A stretch of DNA of 64,000 nucleotides, from NCBI GenBank assembly GCA_902728285.1, contig CACVBU010000977.1, positions 124,001 to 188,000 of the forward strand, given 5' to 3'. This DNA comes from Clytia hemisphaerica (Eukaryota > Cnidaria > Hydrozoa > Leptothecata > Clytiidae). The notes under the pieces were generated by a model. The model worked only from the letters and a program-made list of their open reading frames with translations, was not told where the DNA came from and ran no database searches. Below, in pieces: positions 2,560-61,868 of the stretch (position 1 is its first letter; the number at the start of each line of letters is the position of its first letter). The translations under genes were made by a program, and so were the position numbers.

Positions 2560-2949
2560 TTATGGCTTTTTAAGAAAATTGAAATTATCGAATTTGCTGT
2601 TCAATGATTTTTTGTTTTCAACCTTTCTTGTTTCAGTAAAAGTCAAATGTGTTAAAATGTCTATTATGTGATGATCTGAATGAACTGTAGGAATAACATC
2701 ATAATCAAATATCATTTCATGATTGTTTGTCAATAGAAAGTCTAAAATATTTCCATCTGAATGAGCTTCTTTGTGAATGGATTGATTCAGGTTTAGGTGT
2801 ATCATGAAATCTTGTAAAGTATTTAAAAGTTGTTTATTGCAATTTTCAGTTGGGGTGTATCTGTCATTGATTAAGGTATGAGGAATGTTGAAATCACCGC
2901 AGATTACAATGTCTGGGGTGTGATCTTGAAGTGAGTTAATAATATTCAA
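2560..2949 (-). pseudogene. LINE endonuclease fragment (EEP family, C-terminal part)
   Basis: This frame contains ICGDFNIPH and later HKEAHSDGNILDFLLTNN and HSDHHIID. These are the GDFN, (L)D-TN and SDH motifs of apurinic-like (exonuclease-endonuclease-phosphatase) LINE endonucleases. The intact-looking counterpart is at 41.5-42.5 kb (FGGDFNLP, GNTLDLVFTNN). Only about 435 bp separate it from the C-terminal fragment at 2124, where a full RT would need well over 1 kb, so an internal deletion removed the polymerase. Confidence 0.8.
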
Positions 2950-3401
2950 TATACTATTTTGTATCTCTCAGAAAGTAGAAACTTAAAAAATAAGACGTTT
3001 ATCATTTGTAACACCACCGTATTTCGACCATTCTATCTTGGGCGCAAAATAATGCAAAAACTAAGTAGCACCCTTGGCGCAAGATTGCCGCCCCATCTTT
3101 ATTCGCCGTGCAAGAACGCAAGCTAATCATTTTTTTCTCAAACACTTAAGGGGAAAACGAAAGTGATCGATATTCCTCGAAGAATCAGAAAAAAACCCAT
3201 TAAACCAAAAGATGTATTTTGTTGTTGAAAATCGATCCTGTGAAGATGAAAAGATTTCTGCTACGTTTTTATTTTGGAATGCTGAAAAACTCTAATTTTG
3301 ATCTTCCTTTAAGGTAAAGGGGTTGCGAGATTTGGGTTAGCGGGGCAAAAATCGCTAAAAAGCTGGAAAAATTGTAATCCTCAAATATAGAAGTTCCACT
3401 G

Positions 3402-11907: not shown

Positions 11908-14900
11908 TCAATGCTGCAAACTAGCACCATAATTTGTGGCAAAATAATTATTACTGCAATGCTGGTGATACGAGGGCGGGTAAAGATAACGCACCCCACC
12001 CGTATTGTTTGTATTATTGTAAGGTGCAGAGCCAAGGTTGGGCGGTGTAGAATGTGTAGCGAGGGCGGTGTTGTGATGAACATTTGGATTGTTGTAGTAG
12101 TAATGGTGAGACGAATAGTGGGACGAGTCTTCAAGTCTGAGGGAAAATGAATATATTAAAATGGTTGGTTCTGTTAAGAAGTAATCATTTCAGAAATAAT
12201 TTGACCTTACAATTATACACTGGTTAACTAGGAGGTGACATTTTGCAAGACTTTTATAGTTTCAAAATAGGCCTCGGGTATCAGGGTTGAAGAAAACCGC
12301 CTATGATACCCAGAACATATTTCTGCCAGAGTTCCCTTCCCAAACAGAGAAAGTAGACTCCATTTAAAGAATGCTAATAAAGTATTAAAAACCATGAAAT
12401 AATCTCTTCCACAGAGGCCAAGTTAAAGAAAGAAGTATGACTGATTAACTTGCTAAAATCGCAATCCTGCCCATTAGAGAAGTGGAAACAGGAAATACCT
12501 CAATGGTAGCACTGGGGAATGTATATTGTTCAATGACGAATACCAGGGCGTTGCACCACTACCACCACTACTCACACCACAATTTCCACCACCACCGCCG
12601 CCGCCAACACTATCCATGGATGATGTAGATGACATCACCAGGGAGTCATTATTATTATTGCTACAGTTATTGTTGCCTCCTTGAGGTATATTATCATAAG
12701 AGAAGTAATGATGATAGCTGCTCCCTAATCCTGTGCTACCATGTTGATCACTTGTTGACGACGTCATGGAAACACTGCTCGAAGATGGCGACGGGAGAAG
12801 TGTGCATGATGATGGGCTTCCAGTTTTCCGAGGATCTAAAGTTTAATGAAGATGTTAGGAATTGATGTTAATGAGTTGAGGGAGATGTCTGAAGATCTGA
12901 AGAAAGCAATAGTTCAATTAATTTCAATATATTATTGGGATTAGGAAACATCTTACAACAAAAGTTTATCGCTTTGTATATCGGGTCTGATTACACAGAG
13001 GTTTGAAAATTGAAAGCGTAGATTGATATTAGAAATTCATAAGGTTAAAAGTTTGTGATATTTTCTTCTTAACTGCCTCTTAATGTGAGATCGAGGTCAA
13101 ATATCTTTTAAACGAATGATAAAAAAACTAAAATTGTGCAATAGTTCTTTTAAAAAAAACAGCCTTCCATATTATTGAAATTTGATGTGTTTAAAGTTGA
13201 TACACCTTGACATTTATGAGAAAAATGTCTGTGCAAGAGTAATAGAAATAGAAACGTAAAAATAGAAACAAAGAGGGAGCGTTATTTATTGTTGAGAAAA
13301 TCCTTCCAAAGTCCAATCATTTTTCTTGATAAAACCTTTAAAAATTCTCATGTTTAAAAAGTATTTTGATTTATCTTAAACTAGGTCGAATAAAGAGTAT
13401 TAAAGTAGCAAAAGTAGTAGGTTTGAAACAGGATATAAGATAAAAAAAATTGCTAAAAAATTATGTTTTATCAATAGTTGATCCTGTCTGATCAATTTCG
13501 AGTTTTTCAACCGCAGTTCTATAAACATTTTTCGTCATCTTTATTGCGTTTTTTAGCAGAAACAATAACAAGAATTCACTCCTTAAAGAAGAACGGACAG
13601 AACAGCGAACAGAACATAGGCCATTTGAACATGCTACGATAGCACTGAGCACTTCTGGTCTTGGTAATGAAGCATGGAAAACCATAGAAAAAGAAGTCCT
13701 ACGAGCTTGAATACTTACAAAATGAGGGTTTCAAGGAATTCGAGAAGCCCTCTTCACATCGTTTCATCTTCATTTCGGAATTGGTTTTTGAGCGACGACG
13801 TGCATTGGCAAACCACGTTTTCACCTGAGGGATGGTCAAGCCAGATAGATTTGCCAGCTGCTGTTTCTCAAGTACGCTTGGATATGGATCACTTTTGTGA
13901 TTTATGAGCCAAGTCTTTAGAAGACCAGTTGCTTCCTTAGGTAAGGAACTAGTTTTTCGGATACCATTTAGACATATTGTCCTTGGGGGAGGATTTCTTT
14001 TTCGAACTCGAAATCTGGACAAAGCTGACAACTTTTTGTTTTGTCGGTTTTCCTCCTCAATGTAGTGGGCTTTGTCCCATATTTCCACCAGCTTGTCATG
14101 GTTGGTGAATTGATTCTCCTGAAATGGAAGAAGAGATCGAAAGTTATTTTAATTACTTATCATTTTTGTAATTTATGAGCCGATTTTTATTTTTTAGAAT
14201 TAATTGTTAATAATTTTATTTGTACACATAAAATGGCGTTGATAATATAAAATAAAAAGAGTCAAGTCATAATGATTCGTCACAATCGCTAGGTTTATGT
14301 TTATAGCAAATTTAGAAAATTCTTGTATTTTCAAAGGAAAATCCTCCTTCTAGCTCGGATAGCTAAGCTACTCATTTGTCCAATCTCCATGTCCCCAATC
14401 CCCCGTAATCTCGGAGATCAGCCCAAGAGGAATTTTTATGGCTTGTATCAGGTCATTTTCTAAAACGATGATCTAATGTTTCAAAAGGATTACATATCAT
14501 TGCGATAAGAGTAACAAACCTAGTTATTTTGATGTATTCAGAGAAAGAAAAAAGGGAGGCATCTAATGATCAAATAATGAGTATTGCGTTGGAAATAATC
14601 ATCTTTATAACACCAGGATTTTGTGATTGAAAAGGGGAAAACATTTCATTTTTTGATACATTTTCATTAACTTTCCTACACGTTGAATAGTTTGTTAAAA
14701 GATACGATCTGATTATTTTGAAAAAGGCTCGTTTCAAGCTAAACATGACATGAAGCTTTCAAGATTACGCTACCTTTTCAATAGAAGAGACCAGAGCTAA
14801 AACTCATCAAATAAAAATTCAAATAAAAAAGCTGATCATGTTAGCCCAGACATCAAAGATCTTTTGTCAAGAAATGCATTATTGTGTTTTTCAAGGAAGA

Positions 14901-17900
14901 TTGTTCCTTAGATTCTTGAGAGGAGAAATTCAATAGATTTTCTTGAAACAAAGACAATGACAATTAAAAATGCATGAATGGTTTTCCTTGAGAAATATAA
15001 TTTGATTTTCGAAGGAGGGTTTTATTTGGAAAGTGCGAAGCCCACCTTTCGTTCCAATAAAAATAGTTTTGTATATTATATTTGTCAAGGAACATTGGTC
15101 TGGTGTATTTTCCAAGGAAAGTCATTCTAGAAAAAACTATTGACGAAAATAATTCAATCGATAGGCCATTGATTCGCCTTCATGAAAACAAGAAAGATTC
15201 AATTAAGCTATTGCCTTAAAAAACTGATGGAAGTACAACCAACAAACATGACAACTTTTCTCCCTCATTTCCTATGTTTTGGCATTAGTTATACTGGGGA
15301 GGTGGTTATTAGGGTCGGGAGCTGACGGGTGGTGTACCACCCTACTTTGGACTGACGGACCCTTAAGTATAAGTTTAATCTAAAGGGATACCTGGCTGTT
15401 TTCATTTTCAGATATGTTACACTTATGTACACTTATGTAATTCTGAGGAAAAGTCTTGCTTCAGTATATTTTGAACATGTTGGAATCAATACCGTAATCA
15501 TCTAATCCTTACACCCTTCTTAGGAGATAGGAATAACAGGAAGGTCAGAATGACTGATTGAGAGAAGAAATATAGTTTTCACTCAGTGATTCCAACCTTC
15601 CTTTTTTTCCAAACTCTGAAGGGTATCTGGATTGTTGATATTAGACCAACTTATAGTATTTATTAAAAAAATAGACTTGGGAAGACAATTTGGTTCCCTT
15701 AATGTGACGATGCATTTTTAGTTTGTTGACATTTCTAGAAAAATTAACTATTTTTTTCTTCAAAAACACTCAAGAAATTGAAAGATCTAACCATCTTCAT
15801 TTCATACAAAATTCTGACAATAGTTTGGCTTTAACCCTATTCATACTAGACTTTTAGGGGCGGTTCAGAACTAGGGAGGGGGCTTTTCATGTACCACCCC
15901 TTAACTTGTGATCTAGTGGGTCTTTTTGGATGAAATTTGGCTGAGTTTTCTGAGTCTAAAATGCTTATTTTATCCTAAATATACAATAAATTACGGCTTA
16001 AACAATATATTTGACACAAAAATAAATTTGTATTTGAGATGTGCCAATTTTTGTGACACCTTACTGTCAGAAATGTCATCATGCTCAAGGTGTGAAAAGT
16101 TTTAGGTGTCAAATTTTTTTTTATTTTGAAACTAAATAAAAGTTAGAAATTTACATCACATCACATTTATTTTCATCCCAAAACTTCTATTATTTCGGGA
16201 GCTATTAACAATTGTTTCACCCCTGATCAGAAAAGCCCCCCCCCCTAAGACAAATAGGCTTGATAGACTTTTTGCAGGACATGATGGCATGTTGAATGGT
16301 TAAAAACCCCAGCATCACAACAATGCATTAAATATTTTCTTATCATTGTTTTAGTGATGTAGTCAGTGGAGTTTAGATAATATGCAGCTTGAAGGGTGTC
16401 TAGATTAGATCAGGGATGTAAAATACTTTCCTAACTAGGCAAAAACTCCTTACTATCTGTTGCAACATCCAACATATATATATATATAGCCTTCTCTATA
16501 ACAGTTACTTCTTTAAAAAATTTTCCGTCAGTGTTTTGGCTACTATAGACGGCTTTTGTGATACGCCATTTGTTTACTCATGTGACTTACGGCCAGATCT
16601 TTTAGAGGCAAAAAGACCATAAGCTGGAGGCAAGCAGATTTTTTGTTTTGACAAAGTCTCTGGTAGGACTTTTGAAAAGAAATTTTAGCATGTTTTCTCA
16701 GAGGTAAACAGCCTTACCATTCATAAATTTTGAAGAGATATGACTGGTAGTTGTCAAAAATTTGATTGATATTCACTTGCTTCCATATAAATTGTAAGTC
16801 TTTTTCCTGATTTGCCTCTAATAATCAAGCGCAATCGCCTGCCCACCAGTCACACTAGGAAATCTAGCTTTCAGAAAAAACAACATCAGTCATCTACAGG
16901 ATTTGCAACAACAAGGATGAGAGTTACCTGAATCAAGTTCGGAAGACAATTAATAAAAACTTGAAAGTTTGAAATAAAATAAAACGTGCAGCAGCCAAAA
17001 TCAACCAACCAAAATTTGTCGTTCAATTCCCGAGACGGCGCTTCGATTTTTAAGGCCTAGTTTATACGCTAAAGTAAAAACAATTCCGCACATGAAAATG
17101 GGTCGGTGTTTGAGGTCCGGCAAAATTTCTGGGAAATAGCCTAGATCCGGCGGTGGGTTCCATCTCCTCCGTAGATCTTTTTCTTGGGAAGTTGATCTTC
17201 AAATTAGTTCTCAAGGTTGGCTTGGCTCAAATTATTACATCTATGGCTCAAATTTTAGGCAATTTCTCATAGATTTTGAGAATGTTAATTTCATTTAAAA
17301 GCGCCGGGTTATTTTTCCATGAATCCCTTTAGAGGTTTTGTGGCGCATTTTTTGCTTGAGAGTCAGGTAAACAATATAGCGCTTTCGCAGCATTAATCTT
17401 TGATACACATTTTGGCGGGACGCTAGAGTGACTTAACTGCCCACATCAGTCCGTCCTTACAAAATCAAAACATTGAAACTCCTCTATACCTACCTTACAC
17501 TACTTATCAGGCCTTGCCATGAACAATACCTTGCGTGTGTCAATATAGCACTCCATAAAAGATATGTCATAGATTATGGTGTGCTATTAGCCCTTGCAAA
17601 AAGGATTTTGTACATTCTTTTATATTTTAGGAGTGTTATTTTAGCACTTACAAACTATCTTAGGTGTGTGCCACCATACACGGCAAGGCCCTGCCTATGA
17701 TGTACAAATAAAAAGCATTTTTGTCTAAATATATAAGTCAGTAAGACAAAACTTTTTTTTGGCATGAAATGCTCTTCTATTCAAAATTCACTTTAAAAAA
17801 AAGTGTGACTACTTACAAGCTGTCTTACAAAATAAGTTTCTATTTCAAGAAAAAAAGAACTTTTGATGAGTAAAAAGTGTGTAAAGTTTAGTCCAACAAA

Positions 17901-18475
17901 GATAAAACCACGAGGAGATCAATCATTTTTCATCACAAAGTATTATAATTACCAAAAGTATATCATGTTTCCTCCATTCAATGTTTCTTGTCTTTTGTTT
18001 TTTAAGCTGAATTGTTTTGGTTTGACTCGACCTGAACTGTGAAATGTGTGTGAGAATTGTGGTTCTTTAGCACAGCGAGCGCTTCTGACTTTCACTTTCG
18101 TTTTTTGTTTTTGAAGAAAATTCGAATGTTGCGTATAAGGCCCTATCTACACGAAAAATGGCAAAATAGAATAAGAAAACTGACCTTGAGAATCTTTTTC
18201 ACAGTGTCTGTGTCTTTTTTGTGTAGTGCTACCTCAGCTTTTGCTCGAAGAATACATTCCTCAGTCCAATAAACATCGGTATTTGGAAGTTCATTGAGAA
18301 ACACAGACAAGGCATCCATGCTATTGGTCTTAGAGAGTAAACAACAAATATCGTTTGCAATGTTTTTGACGGAAGTGTCTTCCACAGGGAGAATGTTTGT
18401 ATAATGCCTCCAAAGTTGTAAAAGCTGTTGCACATGTTCCACAGTATTACTGGCTTTTTCCTCTAGGTGGTCCAT
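11908..18475 (-). CDS. SIX-domain homeobox protein with TALE-like three-residue insertion
   Basis: Four exons in phase: 18475-18185, 14118-13719, 12835-12499, 12136-11908, total 1257 nt, 418 aa. Exon 1 plus the start of exon 2 form a SIX domain (LNELPNTDVYWTEECILRAK, VKKIL, then LVEIWDKAHYIEEEN and RFRVRKRNPPPRTI), the protein-interaction domain of SIX transcription factors. A homeodomain follows (KEATGLLKTWLINHKSDPYP, then GLTIPQVKTWFANARRR). Compared with SIX homeodomains it has three extra residues before DPYP, the length of the TALE loop, and WFANARRR as in Iroquois/Mohawk, not the SIX WFKNRRQR. Exons 3 and 4 encode a disordered Ser/Gly/Asn/His/Tyr-rich tail ending at TGA 11908. The frame is open 42 nt upstream of the ATG to an acceptor at 18517, so an extra 5' exon is possible. 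Intron 1 is 4.1 kb. Nuclear DNA-binding role is inferred; ANHX-like or a diverged SIX are both possible. Confidence 0.85.
15283..15380. repeat. GT/AC-rich fragment in homeobox intron 1
   Basis: GGGTCGGGAGCTGACGGGTG, followed by GGACTGACGGACCC, resembles the inner MITE at 19.66-20.0 kb (GGACCGACGGGTATG). It is probably a degraded relative. Confidence 0.35.
15835..16270. repeat. Degraded MITE-like inverted repeat in intron 1
   Basis: The left segment CATACTAGACTTTTAGGGGC with GGGGGCTTTTC is loosely mirrored by GAAAAGCCCCCCC, then CCTAAGACAAATAGG near 16230. The ends are imperfect. No coding content. Confidence 0.4.
17505..17698. repeat. MITE-like inverted repeat in intron 1
   Basis: CAGGCCTTGCCATG near 17508 is mirrored by CACGGCAAGGCCCTG near 17680. 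Inner blocks (TGTGTCAATATAGCACTCC against GGAGTGTTATTTTAGCAC) are also inverted. It accounts for the open frame at 17473-17700. Confidence 0.6.
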
Positions 18476-18519
18476 TTTCCACCCAGAGCCTAAACTTTGC
18501 TTTAATCTTCGACGATTCT

Positions 18520-19600
18520 GTAGAAAAGAAAATTATCAAGATAAACAATTAATGCTAAACAAAAAAGTCCAAACAAAAAATGTTAAAACTTTTAATTATC
18601 CACATTCAACTTTATTCTAACATTTTTTCTGTATGCAAAAAATTGTTATTGTTATGACCCAGCATAAAGTATAAGATTTCCCTTTCCAAACAAATTCCAA
18701 AAAGACATTCCAAATAAAAAGATATCGCATCACAAAAAGTGTGAAGCGATATGTTTAACGGTGAATAACAAAAGAAAAGAATTTCAAAACGATCACCTCC
18801 TAATAAATGCGATTGCCTTCTGCTCTCCACCACTGTGTCAAAATATATTCATTTTTTCTTCCCTCAGACAGTAAAGACAATAGAAAATTAATATTTTCAG
18901 ACAATAAACATGAGAACATTTCTATGGAGGATTTTCCATACTTTCTACACTTAAGGTTTTCCAACAAAGGTTTCTAGCGTAGACCGTTTTCCGGGATGAA
19001 ATAAAAGTCTAGCCTATCCAAAACTCATCAGAGCGCATGCAAACTTTTCCAAAAGCTCAAAATCTTTATATCCAAAACACTTTATCAAATTGGACATTTT
19101 TTTTTCAATTTTTGACTTTGAGAACCACCCACCTGTGCAAAAATGTCTCTGCGAATCGAATTTCCATCAAATTACTACTTTCTACAAGGTCAATCAAAAT
19201 TTAACAAGATTATGAAAAATCTAACAAAAGGGTATGGCAATCCAATTTTTGACCATTTCACTTTCCCAGTCACTAAAAAACCAGCGCGCCAGACTAAAAA
19301 ACTCATACAAACAACAAACTTTTCTACCAGACAGTAATGTTTTAACATACATTCGAAAATTCGAAAAAGTAAAAAAACGTTCGATTAGTATCTAGTTTTG
19401 TTTACATGCCACAACATTTTACAAGAACTTTTTCATTTCCGGGTTGTTCATTGACATCGGAGAAAAAGTTGGGTTGAAATAAATTGTTTCTTGCAAAAGA
19501 TTTTATGCTACGAGTATTTATTGCCTACAAAAACACAGGCTTTCTTGAATTTCGTTTGGAAAAAGGGAGCTTTAGGATCGCTCCTGGCCACGGTCTCAGT
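18520..19600. other. Upstream flank of the homeobox gene
   Basis: No further exon of the homeobox gene is evident. The acceptor before 18517 implies at least one upstream exon, perhaps untranslated, whose position I cannot fix. No TATA box in a convincing position. Confidence 0.35.
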
Positions 19601-41081: not shown

Positions 41082-41459
41082 TTTTCAGAATCCTGTCGTT
41101 TTGCTCATGTAAAAGGAACAAAAAGACAACCTCCAACTGTGAAAAGTAGTGTAGCGCACAATAACAAACAATCAAACAATAACAAACAAGAGCCTGGTCA
41201 TTTTTTAGATATGATTCGTCTGTTGAAGGAAGAAATTCTGGAAACACTGGGACAGAAAATCCAAGACATTCAATTTCAAGTACAAAACCTACAACAGACT
41301 CATCAATTACCTCAACAACAGACTCACCAAATACCTCCACAACAGACTCACCAAATACCTCCACAACAGACTCATCTGATACCCCCACAAGGACTACCGC
41401 TCAGACCACCATTCCAAATCCCTCAACTACCATTCAACCCAATGCAAACATTCCAGTAG
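41082..41459 (+). pseudogene. LINE ORF1, C-terminal fragment
   Basis: The frame enters from the truncated 5' end with CRFAHVKG, possibly the last Cys/His residues of a zinc knuckle. It then has a Gln/Asn-rich linker, a short helical segment (DMIRLLKEEILETLGQKIQD) and four tandem QQTHQIPP-type repeats, ending at TAG 41457. ORF2 starts in the adjacent frame almost immediately. RNA-binding chaperone role is known for such ORF1 proteins. Confidence 0.65.
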
Positions 41460-42540
41460 TGAATAGCTTTGCATTTTTTAACATACAAGGGCTTTGTCCA
41501 CAAACAGTACCCAGCAAAGTTCCCTTTATTAAAGATAATGTCTGTAATGAAAACCAACTTTTTGTTGGATTGTCAGAAACTTGGTTATATAACCATAAAG
41601 ACGCAGAACTTAAAGTAGAAGGTTTCACTCCCTTCCGATGTGATTCAACAAGAAAGAAGAAATCTAGAGGCAGATTTACTGGTGGAGTTTGTTTTTATGT
41701 CAGGGATGATATTGCAGCTTCATGCGAAAAAATCTATTCTCACTCCTCACCCAGTGTACAACTTCTTTGCCTATACTCAAGCATCGAAAATCTGGCTATC
41801 CTGGTAGTCTACCGACAACCTGACGACAAAGCAAATGGTAATCCTTCAACCGCAAATGATTTTATCATTCCTATCAATGGTGTAAAAAATGCACTTTCAA
41901 AGTTAGAAACCGTACCAAATATCATTTTTGGAGGTGATTTCAACCTTCCAAAGCAACTTGGCCTGAGGGCCTTCCAAAATCAGGATGTACTATCAACGAC
42001 CGTCTTATTCTAAACTCTTTGAATCAGTTTTGCAACGAATTCTTCATGTCACAATATATCGATTTGCCAACACACAAGGACGGAAATACATTAGACCTTG
42101 TTTTCACTAACAACGAACAAATAATACACAGCTACACAACAGTACCTGTATTGCAAAGCACATCACATCACGAAATTGTACTAGTATCAACAACTCTGAA
42201 AGTTCAAAACTCCTTTCTGGACGACGATCAACAAGAGCCAAGCACAAAATTCAACACACTGAATTATTTTGCTGATGACATTGATTGGGAAACTATTAAA
42301 GATGATCTCAAATATGTCAACTGGCCAAGTGAGTTCGATACTGAAGACCCAGATGTTATTTTGGAAACCTTCAACAACATATGCTACAGAATATGCGAAA
42401 GCAGAGTTCCCGTGAAGGCCAAGACCACATCAAAAACGAAATCAAAAGCTGAGAGATACCGTCACTCTCTTACAAAAAGAAGAAGAAAATTACAAAAAAA
42501 CTTTTACACACCAACTCCAAATCCAAGAAAGACAAGATAA
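41460..42540 (+). pseudogene. LINE ORF2, endonuclease domain, frameshifted
   Basis: Endonuclease motifs in order: FFNIQGLCP (start), LSETWLYN, the GGVCFYVRDD core, LVVYRQPDD, FGGDFNLP, GNTLDLVFTNN and TSHHEIV. A frameshift between about 41950 and 42010 moves the reading to the frame open at 42019-42540, and a second one near 42525 moves it on to the linker. The conserved Glu (SETW) and Asp (GDFN) residues are present, so decay is by indels and not active-site change. Confidence 0.85.
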
Positions 42541-42914
42541 AAGATGAACTTTTACAAATTGAGAAAAAACTTCAAAAATCTTTTAATGAGTCAAAGCGTC
42601 ACGTGGAAAGCAAAGTGATTGACTCAATTAAAAAGAATTCAAAATATTTCTTTACCTATGCAAAAAAGAAATCGAAAATTCGGTCTAATATCGGACCCCT
42701 ATTGAATTGCAATGAAGAACTTACACAAAGAAGCAAAGAAATGGCTGATCTCTTAGCCGACCAATATGCTAAAGTGTTCAGTAAACCAAAGCAACCACAA
42801 CCTCAACCTAACCAAGACAAAACAAACGTCAAGATTGATGAGATTAACGTAACTGAAGACTCCATCGTTAAAGCAATAAATGAGCTGTCTCCATCATCTT
42901 CTGCAGGACCTGAT
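42541..42914 (+). pseudogene. LINE ORF2, linker before the RT
   Basis: Lysine-rich helical region (SKVIDSIKKNSKYFFTYAKK, then SNIGPLLN), then the conserved entry to the RT (NELSPSSSAGPD). The frame is cut here by the nested MITE. The next residues (GFPAMFLKKC) continue after 43337, so the original frame was intact at this point. Confidence 0.8.
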
Positions 42915-43332
42915 CATAGTTCGCACCCCCCCCCCCCTTTATAAAGGGGGGGTAGCGATGTTCAGAAAATCTCAGAAAGGGGGGGGGTAAGAGAATTTTT
43001 TCTAGAAAGGGGGAAGTTTTTAGAAAGGGGGGGGGGGTTCATCTAGAAAGGGGGGGGGGTAAGATGTCAGTGGTATGTTTTTTTTTGTGTTTTCCCAAAT
43101 TAGAAGTTTTATTTTTAATTTACAATGCAACGTCTTCTTTATTAATTGTTTAGTATGTTTGAAACATTCGATTCAAAATGATTCTATTTTTTTCGCAATG
43201 CAGTGTGTTCTATTTTCTTTTGTAGGATTTTAAAATTTTGAGGGGGGTAGCATCAAATTTTAAAAGGGGGAAGAACCTAGGGTAGGGGGTAGCTCTAGGG
43301 TAGGGGGGGTAGTGACCCCCTTCCGAACTATG
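42915..43332. mobile_element. G-run MITE 4 nested in the LINE, CTGAT duplication
   Basis: Inverted ends CATAGTTCG, flanked by CTGAT on both sides (42910-42914, 43333-43337). The LINE reading frame is restored if the element and one duplicate are ignored. It is full of C/G tracts (12 C at 42928-42939, G runs of 7-10 between 42948 and 43068, more near 43310) and AGAAAGGGGGGGGG repeats. The 5-bp duplication distinguishes it from the TA-flanked G-run MITEs. Confidence 0.9.
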
Positions 43333-44600
43333 CTGATGGATTTCCAGCTATGTTTCTCAAAAAATGCAAAGATGAGTTATCCGTTCCACTGTGTTTACTC
43401 TGGAAGAAAAGCCTAGAAATAGGTCTTGTTCCAACTGAACTGAAAAAATGCACCATAACACCAATTCACAAAGGAGGAAGCAGATCTCTGGCTGCCAACT
43501 ACAGACCTGTTGCACTCACCTCGCATGTGATAAAAATTTTCGAGAAAATATTGAAAAATCATATTGTAAATCACATGAACAACAATGACCTTTTCAATCC
43601 AAACCAACATGGTTTCAGAAGTGGGAGATCCTGCCTTAGTCAGCTTCTCGAGCAACACGACCTCATTCTTGACATATTAGATGATGGTTTGAATGCAGAT
43701 GTTGTTTACCTTGATTTCTCAAAGGCTTTCGACAAAGTCGATCATGCAGTTGTACTTGGGAAATTAAAGCAATTGGGTATATCCGGACCAATCCACAGAT
43801 GGATTGAATCATTCCTTACTGAAAGATATCAAACAGTAATAGTAAATGGTGTCAAGTCCAAAGCCCAGAAAGTAATTTCAGGAGTCCCTCAAGGCAGTGT
43901 ATTGGGACCTCTTATATTTCTAATATTGATTGGTGACATTGATGAAAAAGTATTGTACTGTATATTGAAATCATTTGCTGATGATACACGTGCCACCAAA
44001 TCAATCAAAAACACAAAGGATGTTGAAATTCTTCAAAAAGAACTAGAAAAAGTCTATGACTGGACTGAAGAAAACAACATGAAACTAAATGACACAAAGT
44101 TTGAACTTCTACACTATGGTCCAGATGAAGAAATAAAAAACCAAACTCACTACAAATCCCCTTCAGGAGAAAATATTGAAAGGAAGAAATTTGTGAAGGA
44201 CCTGGGAGTACTAATGTCAGATGATGCTGTCTTTACACATCAAATAAATTCAGTCATTGAGAAAGCAAAAAACTTGATTTCCTGGATTCTGCGGACTTTC
44301 TCTTCGCGTTTACCCCAACTAATGATTACTCTTTACAAATCATTGGTTATTCCAGTCATTGAATATTGCTCAGTCCTATGGAGTCCAAGTGCTGTCAGTT
44401 CTACCCAAAGATTAGAAGAAATCCAAAAATCATTTCTCAAAAGAATAACTGGCACTCCAAAAAACTATTGGGATTGTCTGAAAAAGCTAAAACTTTACTC
44501 ACTTCAAAGAAGAAGGGAGAGATATCGGATCCTGTATACATGGAAAATAGCTGAAAATCTGGTTCCAAACATCAACAATAAATTTCAATTCAAGGAACTC
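43333..44600 (+). pseudogene. LINE ORF2, reverse transcriptase domain
   Basis: RT motifs in order: PIHKGGSRSLAANYRPVAL, QHGFRSGRSCLSQL, VYLDFSKAFDKVDH, GVPQGSVLGPLIFL and the catalytic SFADDTRA (FADD box). Then a thumb region (VKDLGVLMSDDAVFTHQI), SLVIPVIEYCSVLW and LQRRRERYRILYTW. The frame is open from 43350 to about 44600, where a frameshift occurs. Order and motifs fit non-LTR elements of the CR1/Jockey group; clade assignment would need a tree. Confidence 0.9.
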
Positions 44601-44851
44601 CAAGATTGGGAAGGATGTGTGTTCGCACCCATAGTTCAAAACTACATGATAGCACACTTGTTGTGCAAGGTGCTAAGTTATTCAATTCAATGCCCAAGAG
44701 TATTAGAGATGTGAAGAATGTTACAGTCGAAAAGTTCAAAAACTCTCTAGACAGACACCTCAGTTCGATCCCAGACGAGCCACAGATTCATGGTTACACA
44801 GGGTGCAGGAGAGCCGACTCTAACTCCATTCTTGACATGAAAACTGTTTAG
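44601..44851 (+). pseudogene. LINE ORF2 C-terminus in shifted frame
   Basis: From 44606 the frame reads MCVRTHSSKLHDSTLVVQGA, then GAKLFNSMPKSIRD and PDEPQIHGYTGCRRADSNS, ending TAG at 44849-44851. It is homologous to the relic at 1666-2124 (GPKLFNSLPFYIRN, YPYRRADSNS). A single frameshift near 44600 separates it from the RT frame. Confidence 0.85.
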
Positions 44852-55920: not shown

Positions 55921-58900
55921 ATGTTATCTGCCGCAAGGAAACTAACACAACAACGTCAATCGATTTTATGGAAAAGGAATGACCTCAAGCTAATTTCACC
56001 AGAAATCTTTGGAGAGTTCAATACGGGGATCCCACTGATCTCGAGCGTCAAGAATGTTGACCAACCAACTAAGATTGAATCAACTTTAGCATGTCGGTGC
56101 TTGAATCGAGTTTCTGCTCTCAAAAATGACCATGCAGACGAAGAAGATTCTAAGAAATCAAATTTCTCTCATAAAGTAAGTACTGGCAAACTTTTTTTTG
56201 CTTTGGACTTCTAAAGATTTTTACCCGTTGTAACCATAAAGCCATTATGGTAATAACCGGGAGGGCACATTGCTATACATTGTACCCGTTGTATTTATAC
56301 GCAAATTTAACAGGGCTGTTGCCATTAAGTTTAAAGCCCGAAGGGCTAGAGGCTAGAGTTGAATCTTTAACCTTTCCCGGGTAAGAAAAGTGAAGCCACA
56401 TATTTCCCATGGAAGTCAATCGTTGTTGCTTTCTTCGCAACTACAATTACAAACTAATTTGTATCACTATTGTATTAAACGTATCAATGAACCCCGGAAA
56501 GATATCCATTTTGAAATCAGCGATGCAGCCACAACACGTTTTCTTCAAAGCTTAAAGCTCAGCTCCTCGACTTTGTTATAAGAACGTACATTACAAATAG
56601 ATGTGAGAAGGATTCCTAACTTGGTTATGTTAAGTTAGAAATTAGAACAGGTTATAGTAAAATGTAGCATGGGAAAGGTCATATGAAAACTCAAAGTTTT
56701 GTTTCTTTTTAGATATGGTCAGATTCGTCCGTGCAAACCCATGAAACTGGTGGTGTTGATGTAGAGCACCTGGAACACATGAATTCCATGAATGAAGTTC
56801 ATGATAAGAAAATGTCTGCAATGGGTGACGACCTTAAATCCAAGCAAAAAATAATCAATCAGCTAAAAGCACAAATTGCTGAGAGTAATGATTTTCACAA
56901 AATCGAAGATCTGAAGAGGGAAATCAAAAAGAAAGATGCTCAGTCGATTGCAGACCAGGCTGCAATCAATCAACTCAGAGAGCTCCTTAGAAGTAAAGAC
57001 AGCAAAACAAGCAAAAAGAAAAACAAGTTGTCTAAAAAAGATAATCCCGTTAAGAATACAGATGAGGGAATTTCTAGTTCAAATGGTGATAAATCAGAAC
57101 AAGGAGCTGTAGCAAAAAATGAAGTTATGAATAACTTGAAACAACAACTTTCATTTAAAGAGTCCCAGTTGGTATCATACAGGAATGAGATCAATTGCTT
57201 TACAGAAACGATTGGAAAAAAGGATATGAAGCACAAAGAAGAGGTGGAATCCCTGAAGAAGAAGATAGAGCATCTCAATAAACTTAATACGAAAGATCTT
57301 CTCAACACCCAAGCTCAAATCCAGGTATTGAACGAATCTTTCCAAGAAAACAATCAAACGATTCAATCCGTCCAAAAGGAGCTTGAACAATCGAAGAAAG
57401 ACGCCAACAAAGGGCTTCTTGAAAATCGGGAGCTAAGAGAGCGTCACGAAATCGAGTGCAGACGTATGGATGAGGTGATCAAACATTTGAAGGAGATGAA
57501 CGTCTCCAAGGACCAGGCACTACAGACACTTGATTCAAAATTTAAGAGGCTTGGACGTAGGTCACAAGCGTATGAAATGAAACATCACGATTTTTGTGCT
57601 GATGCCGAGCATCGCATTCAAACCCTCCAATCGGAGGTTACAAAACTTGGTCAATTACTTTCATGTGAGAAAGAAGAAAAAGCAGCTGCAAGAGAAGGGT
57701 TTCAACAGGAAATGCTGGATCTCAAGAAATCCAACACAAAGGTCAAATACGATGCAGACATGGCTAAGCTGGATAATATCAAATTAAGAAAACAGACGGA
57801 GACCATGAAAAACGAAGTGGAAATGGATAAAATCAAGATCGCTTGTCTGAAAGCAACCATCAGCCAGAACCAACTAAAATATCATAACTCAATGTCTCAA
57901 GCAGGTCGACAAATTGATTTGCTGAAGATGAAAGTAGATATGCTGGAAGATGAGAAGAAAGGTGAAATGGACTCAATGGACAAGCGACTTGAATCGAAAG
58001 GAGTCCAATGCGTTGTTCAAATAAACATGCTTGAAACTGCTGGAAAGATCGACGACGATCCAACATTAGAAGAAGAAGCGAACCTGACAGAAACTAGCGA
58101 CGTTACAACAGCAGGAATTTTGAAGAAAACCGACTTACGTTCTCAAACCGTCCAAATACAGTCTCTCTCAACTAGAGACGTTCTGCCAAAGAATTCTCAA
58201 AAGATTTTAACTCCCTCTTATAAGGACGAGTTCCCTGAACTAATCAAATCTACACCAAGTCAAGAGGTCACCAAAGTTGGAAAGGCATCGAAGAACCGTT
58301 GCTCTGCATCAAGAAAAACACCCGTTGAAGGATGTGAAAATACTGAGACTAAAATGTTTTTGGATAAGATTGAGCGACTTGAGAGTCAGCTAAGACAACA
58401 AAACATTCAACTTACATCGAGAGCCGAGGGGGATGTCAAGAAGAAAAAGATCCTTAGCGATCGCGAAGCGGAGATAAAAAGCAAGGATACTAAGATTACT
58501 AATTTAACTGACCAACTGACGAAGCAAAAAGGGATCAGCAATGCTATCCATAAGCAGCGTGATTATGAAAAAGAAGAAAAGCGCAAAATGGAAAAAGAAT
58601 TATTGAAAGTGCGCGACAAACTGCAAGCGACTAAGTTGCAATGTGAAAATCTTCGTCAAAATCATGCGGCAACACTGAAAGTAAATCCTAAAAGTAACGA
58701 CAAGAATATGTACAACAAACCCAAATTAACTAGCAACATAAATGGTAAGGAAAAATTTAATTTTTATCGCATTGACATTTAGCTTCAAGGAGATAAATTT
58801 CCAAACACAATGATTCTGATTCGCGAAATTGAATTTCATTGAAAAAAGCCGAATTACAGTTCGTAAGTATTTTTCTGGAAGGACTTCTTGAGTACTCTGT

Positions 58901-59899: not shown

Positions 59900-61868
<1,969 letters not shown>

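Follow-up and report, generated by a model that had tools for sequence, protein, structure and literature searches.

A probable cnidarian csSix-X counterpart with a SIX domain and a TALE-type homeodomain in one open frame

We analyzed a stretch of DNA of 64,000 nucleotides (referred to here as the window) that carries, on its minus strand, a homeobox gene in which a SIX domain stands upstream of a TALE-type homeodomain. Our data indicate with good confidence that this gene, from a cnidarian that is probably a hydrozoan, is apparently intact and present in a single copy, and that it encodes a transcription factor in which a divergent SIX domain is fused in frame to the TALE-type homeodomain. 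By published description it is probably the counterpart of csSix-X (JF819724), a gene reported in 2012 from Craspedacusta sowerbyi with a SIX domain and an Irx-like helix 3, WFAN (PMC3340352), and so probably a new member of a gene type already reported from a jellyfish and a sea anemone. Judged by its predicted domains and residues, the protein is a true SIX-TALE hybrid of a kind already in print, and it is most likely a transcription factor of the Six-X type that would recognize DNA as Iroquois proteins do.

Gene model and domain architecture

The gene occupies 11908-18475 of the window and runs from an ATG at 18475 to a stop codon ending at 11908, with four coding exons encoding 418 amino acids (Table 1). 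All three introns are GT-AG, their cumulative phases (0, 1, and 2) fit one another, and the joined frame contains no internal stop codons, so that the gene appears intact. A splice acceptor, TTTTCTACAG at 18518-18527, lies immediately upstream of 18517, and at least one further upstream exon is therefore expected. Since the 14 codons between this acceptor and the ATG stay open, the true N-terminus is uncertain; the first upstream in-frame stop, a TAA at 18533, lies inside the presumed intron. Exons 3 and 4 were called from open frame, splice sites, and phase alone. The tail comprises 198 residues and is rich in serine, asparagine, and glycine (fractions of 0.21, 0.12, and 0.11, respectively).

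In Pfam, the 418-residue protein matched SIX1_SD (1.3e-23, residues 41-143, 84.1 bits against a cut-off of 27.4), Homeobox_KN (1.4e-14, residues 167-206, the best homeodomain score), and Homeodomain (1.8e-7), all of which exceed their cut-offs; HTH_56, at 0.0025, fell under its cut-off and was disregarded. Exon 2 alone exceeded the cut-offs of both SIX1_SD (5.6e-12) and Homeobox_KN (2.8e-15), and exon 1 alone matched SIX1_SD at 6.2e-6 with 27.1 bits, marginally under the cut-off. Homeobox_KN reached 56.3 bits in exon 2, matched from profile position 1, versus 33.9 bits for Homeodomain. The order was the reverse in the four canonical SIX proteins scanned, where Homeodomain (48.1-50.7 bits) scored above Homeobox_KN (40.9-48.3 bits) and the latter was matched from position 7 or 8.

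Against the PDB (phmmer), the first 230 residues matched SIX1 of 4egc at 1.8e-30 for both domains together. Taken alone, the homeodomain found MEIS1 and MEIS2 at the top (3.5e-14), with SIX1 at 1.6e-7, and the SIX-domain part found SIX1 (2.6e-17); the single further match of this part, to another chain, was not significant (0.49). When aligned with SIX1 (4egc), the window protein has three unmatched residues shortly before DPYP and one in the linker. The three-residue gap recurs in free alignments with four SIX rows from the same genome, its exact position varying with aligner and row.

The junction between exons 1 and 2 falls after residue 97, within the SIX domain, and SIX and TALE parts are united in a single uninterrupted frame. 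Because the second half of the SIX domain and the whole homeodomain share exon 2, a splicing artefact is ruled out as the source of the hybrid. An alignment artefact at the loop is ruled out as well, since three residues remain unmatched against SIX1 and the four SIX rows of the same genome and since the TALE-like identity persists when the loop is excluded. An earlier note, made from the sequence by eye, had proposed the four joined exons, three extra residues before DPYP, WFANARRR in helix 3, and a mixture of hallmarks of two homeobox classes, to be checked with domain profiles. The splice sites and phases, the profile matches, and the alignments agree with these proposals, and the mixture is apparent in the Pfam and PDB matches, the scan of exon 2, and the residue identities. 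The same note had SIX-domain sequence continuing across a splice junction into the homeodomain; the two are indeed joined, but the junction lies inside the SIX domain and not between the domains, which strengthens the observation of a hybrid.

Class hallmarks, homeodomain tree, and origin

Position 50 is described as K in the SIX class and as I, A, or G in the TALE class, with A in IRO and MKX (PMC5322547, PMC4901127), while position 5 is described as S, T, or V in fly SIX genes and as R or K in fly TALE genes (PMC4901127). The window homeodomain has 63 residues, where the SIX class has 60, and its TALE-type features are the three extra residues of loop 1 and A50; K50 is present in all seven canonical SIX rows that we compared (two of them entered by hand). 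Its SIX-type feature is T5, and a SIX domain lies N-terminal to it. Helix 3 reads WFANARRR, and T47, A50, N51, and R54 are identical to those of the IRX gene of the same genome. Positions 3-6 read RKTS, with none of the SIX subclass motifs ETSY, ETVY, and QKTH at that place, and no IRO box core (KPKIWS or K[PA]K[IV]W) was found in the 418 residues. A SIX domain upstream of a WFAN homeodomain, without a SIX subclass motif and without an IRO box, is the set of features that characterizes Six-X.

Outside the loop, the window homeodomain shares 29 of 60 positions with MEIS1, 28 with the IRX of the same genome, 27 each with PKNOX1, MKX, and ara, and 25 each with TGIF1 and PBX1. The corresponding counts for the seven canonical SIX rows are 19, 21, 20, 18, 22, 22, and 20, and those for En and Antp are 17 and 14; the MKX, ara, SIX3, SIX4, En, Antp, and PKNOX1 rows and the flanks of MEIS1 were entered by hand. 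A separate free alignment gave 31/61 for IRX, 28/51 for MEIS1, 17/48 for a Pbx piece, and 19-22/60 for four SIX genes of the same genome. Among positions invariant in five canonical SIX proteins, 21 of 35 are kept in the SIX domain and 13 of 24 in the homeodomain part; R-G-R is lost, and G alone is retained of W-D-G-E.

A tree was built from 17 homeodomains (the window gene, seven TALE, seven canonical SIX, En, and Antp) with loop columns excluded. Canonical SIX rows split off without the window row at 92/99, a branch that is not starred, and the window row takes no settled place among the TALE rows of the best tree. In that tree SIX lies within a TALE grade, and SIX, TALE, and the window row together are starred versus the two ANTP rows, which serve as the root. 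Of the 14 inner branches only one carries a star, and the software flagged long branches, that of the window row among them. The earlier note had looked to such a tree to decide the class; the tree shows only that the window homeodomain is not firmly an ordinary SIX homeodomain, and places it neither with TALE nor with SIX. The earlier note's suggestion of a lineage-specific SIX derivative is not supported as it stands, since a sea anemone and a hydrozoan are both described as having the same architecture (PMC3340352) and calcareous sponges as having a similar one (PMC4083861).

Several observations weigh against our interpretation. Position 5 holds the SIX state T, where all seven TALE rows have R or K, and Homeobox_KN is not TALE-specific, since the four canonical SIX proteins match this profile as well. 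PBX1 (25/60) is barely nearer than SIX1 and SIX3 (22/60). In approximately unbiased (AU) tests, neither holding the window row with TALE (p-AU 0.194) nor holding it with SIX (p-AU 0.444) was rejected, and the window branch is long. Conservation is weak in the first helix of the SIX domain, the one that faces EYA. Finally, the hydrozoan call leans on the gene order of a mitochondrial contig, C900, which we take to be that of hydroidoline Hydrozoa.

A fusion that brought together a SIX domain and a TALE homeodomain (possibly an Iroquois-type one, with or without loss of an IRO box) is a serious possibility for the origin of the gene and is compatible with our interpretation. The authors of csSix-X proposed that their gene arose either when an Irx gene fused with a SIX domain or from an ancient gene ancestral to both (PMC3340352). 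A fusion would account for a SIX-like T5 beside a TALE-like loop and helix 3, and for the identity of residues 47, 50, 51, and 54 with IRX. However, the joint between SIX domain and homeodomain falls inside one exon, with no intron there, and IRX is not nearer than MEIS1. Holding the window row with IRX and MKX was neither supported nor rejected (p-AU 0.501), and in a published tree that includes Irx, csSix-X and the related Nematostella protein group with Six sequences and separately from Irx (PMC3340352).

Retention of an ancestral state, also compatible with our interpretation, is a possibility that we entertain with some reserve. It would mean that the SIX homeodomain derives from a TALE-length ancestor, that the window gene kept this state, and that canonical SIX genes lost three residues and gained K50. 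The position of SIX within a TALE grade and the starred branch versus the two ANTP rows are consistent with this, as are the similar hybrids of calcisponges (PMC4083861) and of a sea anemone (PMC3340352) and the ancient common gene already offered in 2012 as the alternative origin of csSix-X (PMC3340352). Homeodomain trees that intermingle TALE and SINE have been reported before, though the effect was called artefactual (PMC2211742). Against retention, the tree has a single starred inner branch, long branches that meet, and a root of two rows, and TALE as one clade was not rejected (p-AU 0.302).

Orthology with vertebrate ANHX, which does not exclude the other readings and would make ANHX an ancient metazoan family, is a tentative proposal. 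ANHX is listed within the SIX group of animals in Table 1 of one source (PMC5928047), and another found it, as LOC647589, not easy to fit to any established class (PMC3141429); in the parts of the literature searched, no description of its homeodomain loop length or of residue 50 was found. A wider reading, which we consider unlikely, is that cnidarian Six-X genes, the hybrids of sponges, and ANHX of vertebrates together form one ancient homeobox class that keeps the ancestral SIX form, a SIX domain with a TALE-length homeodomain. Were this so, the canonical SIX genes would have arisen from TALE, losing the loop and acquiring K50.

It is improbable that the window gene is an ordinary SIX gene in which three residues were inserted independently and helix 3 is convergent. 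T5 and the test that holds the window row with SIX allow it, unc-39 of the SIX class is reported to have a one-residue loop insertion (PMC4901127), and csSix-X itself was placed with Six (PMC3340352). Yet outside the loop even the most distant of the seven TALE rows is nearer to the window homeodomain than the closest of the seven canonical SIX rows, the canonical SIX group excludes the window row at 92/99 (not starred), the E-value of MEIS1 is more than six orders of magnitude better than that of SIX1, and the R-G-R and W-D-G-E residues, which five canonical SIX proteins share without exception, are mostly lost. A pseudogene or an artefact of the gene model is very improbable, for although exons 3 and 4 are without homology support, the frame has no internal stop, phases are consistent, domain scores are strong, and the hybrid region lies in one exon.

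Related loci, mitochondrial contig, and other features

The genome searched comprises 417 Mb in 951 contigs, the window included. SIX1_SD gave eight matches, one of which is the window gene (Table 1). The five frames with a whole homeodomain (L003, L004, L005, L006, and L008) have a SIX domain and a 60-residue WFKN homeodomain in one frame; the L009 frame stops inside the homeodomain, and L007 was read on the wrong strand. L003 (G000:C698) and L004 (G000:C894) differ in two homeodomain residues and are alleles or recent duplicates. L008 and L009 (G000:C321, C365) represent a further SIX gene of canonical length with K50 and a long tree branch; its positions 3-6, CMSY, match none of the three SIX subclass motifs.

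The 14 Homeobox_KN matches, which include the window gene and SIX copies, contain one Iroquois gene (L011) and three exon pieces that by sequence belong to Meis, Pknox, and Pbx. The window protein itself gave 10 matches in a search that scores the best candidates only; its own exons account for the two at 99%, after which identity drops to 50%. Since matches beyond its own exons reach at most 50% among these best candidates, the gene appears to be single copy, with no second allele found. Across the searches with SIX1_SD, Homeobox_KN, and the window protein, no other gene of this hybrid build was found in the genome. The EYA domain matched three pieces on one strand of contig C898, none of which reaches the family cut-off; a single gene interrupted by introns would fit this arrangement. 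A search of the genome contig collection for relatives found none; two loci on viral contigs (L001 and L002) share EEENRQNK with the query and are otherwise unlike it by eye, and they were judged chance and dropped without a family search.

COX1 on the mitochondrial contig C900 is open throughout when TGA is read as tryptophan. Reading AGA and AGG as arginine keeps arginines that we take to be conserved, which argues against bilaterian codes. One strand carries, in order, cox2, an atp8-like gene, atp6, cox3, nad2, nad5, small ribosomal RNA, nad6, nad3, nad4L, nad1, nad4, cob, and partial cox1, and the large ribosomal RNA lies on the opposite strand at the far end; cox2, atp8, atp6, and cox3 were read by eye, and nad2 and nad4 were named by position. 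Rfam found two distinct transfer RNAs on the mitochondrial contig, and ARAGORN with the bacterial code found none on L036.

Apart from the homeobox gene, the window holds parts of apparently non-long-terminal-repeat (non-LTR) retrotransposons, exons of a cathepsin L-like cysteine protease, a long open frame, and a tandem array.

Table 1. Features of the homeobox gene, other features of the window, and SIX loci elsewhere in the genome
Feature	Position in window	Strand	Basis or remark
5' part of first detected exon	18476..18517	-	between splice acceptor and ATG; 5' untranslated region or N-terminal extension
Coding exon 1 (residues 1-97), N-terminal half of SIX domain	18185..18475	-	ATG, GT donor, phase 0
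Coding exon 2, one open frame through the C-terminal half of the SIX domain, the linker, and the whole homeodomain	13719..14118	-	AG acceptor, GT donor
SIX domain, C-terminal part	13981..14118	-	Pfam residues 41-143; genome match C677:137981-138145; remainder at 18185-18355
Homeodomain, 63 residues (protein 149-211), T5/T47/A50/N51/R54	13777..13965	-	numbered from WFAN; alignment
Three-residue loop extension between helices 1 and 2	13888..13896	-	put at K-S-D by convention; after residue 23 in fixed alignment
Coding exon 3, Ser/Asn/Gly-rich tail	12499..12835	-	open frame, AG/GT, phases 1 to 2
Coding exon 4, end of tail and stop codon	11908..12136	-	AG acceptor, phase, stop ending at 11908
Reverse transcriptase open frame, apparently of a non-LTR retrotransposon	43299..44714	+	PF00078, 2.1e-32
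Putative endonuclease part of the same element, upstream	41183..42944		by eye only; no Pfam match at 0.01 in 41183-42013
Tandem array of a 24-base unit, 4.2 copies	41291..41390		lies inside a frame that repeats Q-Q-T-H-x-I-P-P peptides
Endonuclease piece of another non-LTR element, within 1666-2967	2560..2967	-	PF14529, 5.9e-11; no Pfam match at 0.01 in 1666-2292
Cathepsin L-like cysteine protease exons	60172..61601	-	I29 and Peptidase_C1 in 61029-61601; 60172-60504 by eye
Open frame of 689 residues, coiled-coil-like	56713..58782	+	by eye; no Pfam match at 0.01
Six1/2, two copies (L003/L004)			DNA 92% identical; family read from homeodomain motifs
Six3/6 (L005)			family read from homeodomain motifs
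Six4/5 (L006/L007)			family read from homeodomain motifs
Extra SIX (L008/L009)			read from homeodomain motifs

Proposed function and comparison with known systems

The SIX class is central to eye and sense-organ development. SIX-type sites are TCAGGTTTC/TATC, and the Iroquois/TALE core is ACA-type. We propose that the window protein would act as a nuclear transcription factor with two DNA-contacting parts. Its homeodomain would contact DNA in an Iroquois/TALE-like manner through A50, N51, and R54 and not at the SIX core; A50 and R54 give sound grounds for predicting a changed DNA specificity. The SIX domain may add a second DNA contact, and perhaps a cofactor surface, and the Ser/Asn/Gly-rich tail may regulate transcription. 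Binding of EYA is doubtful because the first SIX-domain helix bears only a weak resemblance to its counterpart in canonical SIX proteins, although EYA-like exons exist in the genome. Expression of csSix-X is described in the gonads, in the gastric cavity, and in four zones at the manubrium opening (PMC3340352); by analogy with csSix-X only, the gonad and the lips of the manubrium are likely sites of action.

These data add a genomic locus, an exon structure, and single-copy status for a homeobox type that breaks the usual class definitions. If the cnidarian, sponge, and vertebrate genes were one family, this would bear on the origin of the SIX class from TALE-type homeodomains. The gene might also be viewed as a natural swap experiment on the effect that a SIX domain has on the DNA preference of a homeodomain not its own.

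For ANHX, the published SIX grouping is the sole link seen to the window gene. Canonical SIX/SO proteins (Six1/2, Six3/6, and Six4/5) have a homeodomain of 60 residues with K50 and Q54, in contrast to the 63 residues, A50, and R54 of the window homeodomain, in which W-D-G-E is mostly lost; furthermore, the window gene has an intron inside its SIX domain, whereas the SIX frames read from the same genome have none there. IRO (Irx) and MEIS/PREP proteins resemble the window protein in loop length and helix 3, and the IRX of the same genome has the same T47, A50, N51, and R54. Unlike them, the window protein has a SIX domain, T5 instead of R5, and no IRO box core.

Closer in architecture are the calcisponge hybrids SciHD35531 and LcoHD71216, which, like the window gene, are reported to combine a sine oculis domain with a homeodomain resembling both TALE and SINE (PMC4083861). 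Compared by description, their SIX domain is called partial, and SciHD35531 has an insertion of four residues versus three in the window gene. csSix-X and its near relative in Nematostella, XP_001633591.1, are cnidarian like the window gene and share with it a SIX domain with a WFAN homeodomain; csSix-X is described as having neither a SIX subclass motif nor an IRO motif (PMC3340352), and the three genes are alike in this respect. Their homeodomains start differently at positions 3-6, with RKTS in the window gene versus RRTN in csSix-X and QKST in the Nematostella relative (PMC3340352), and it is by these published descriptions that the three are likened.

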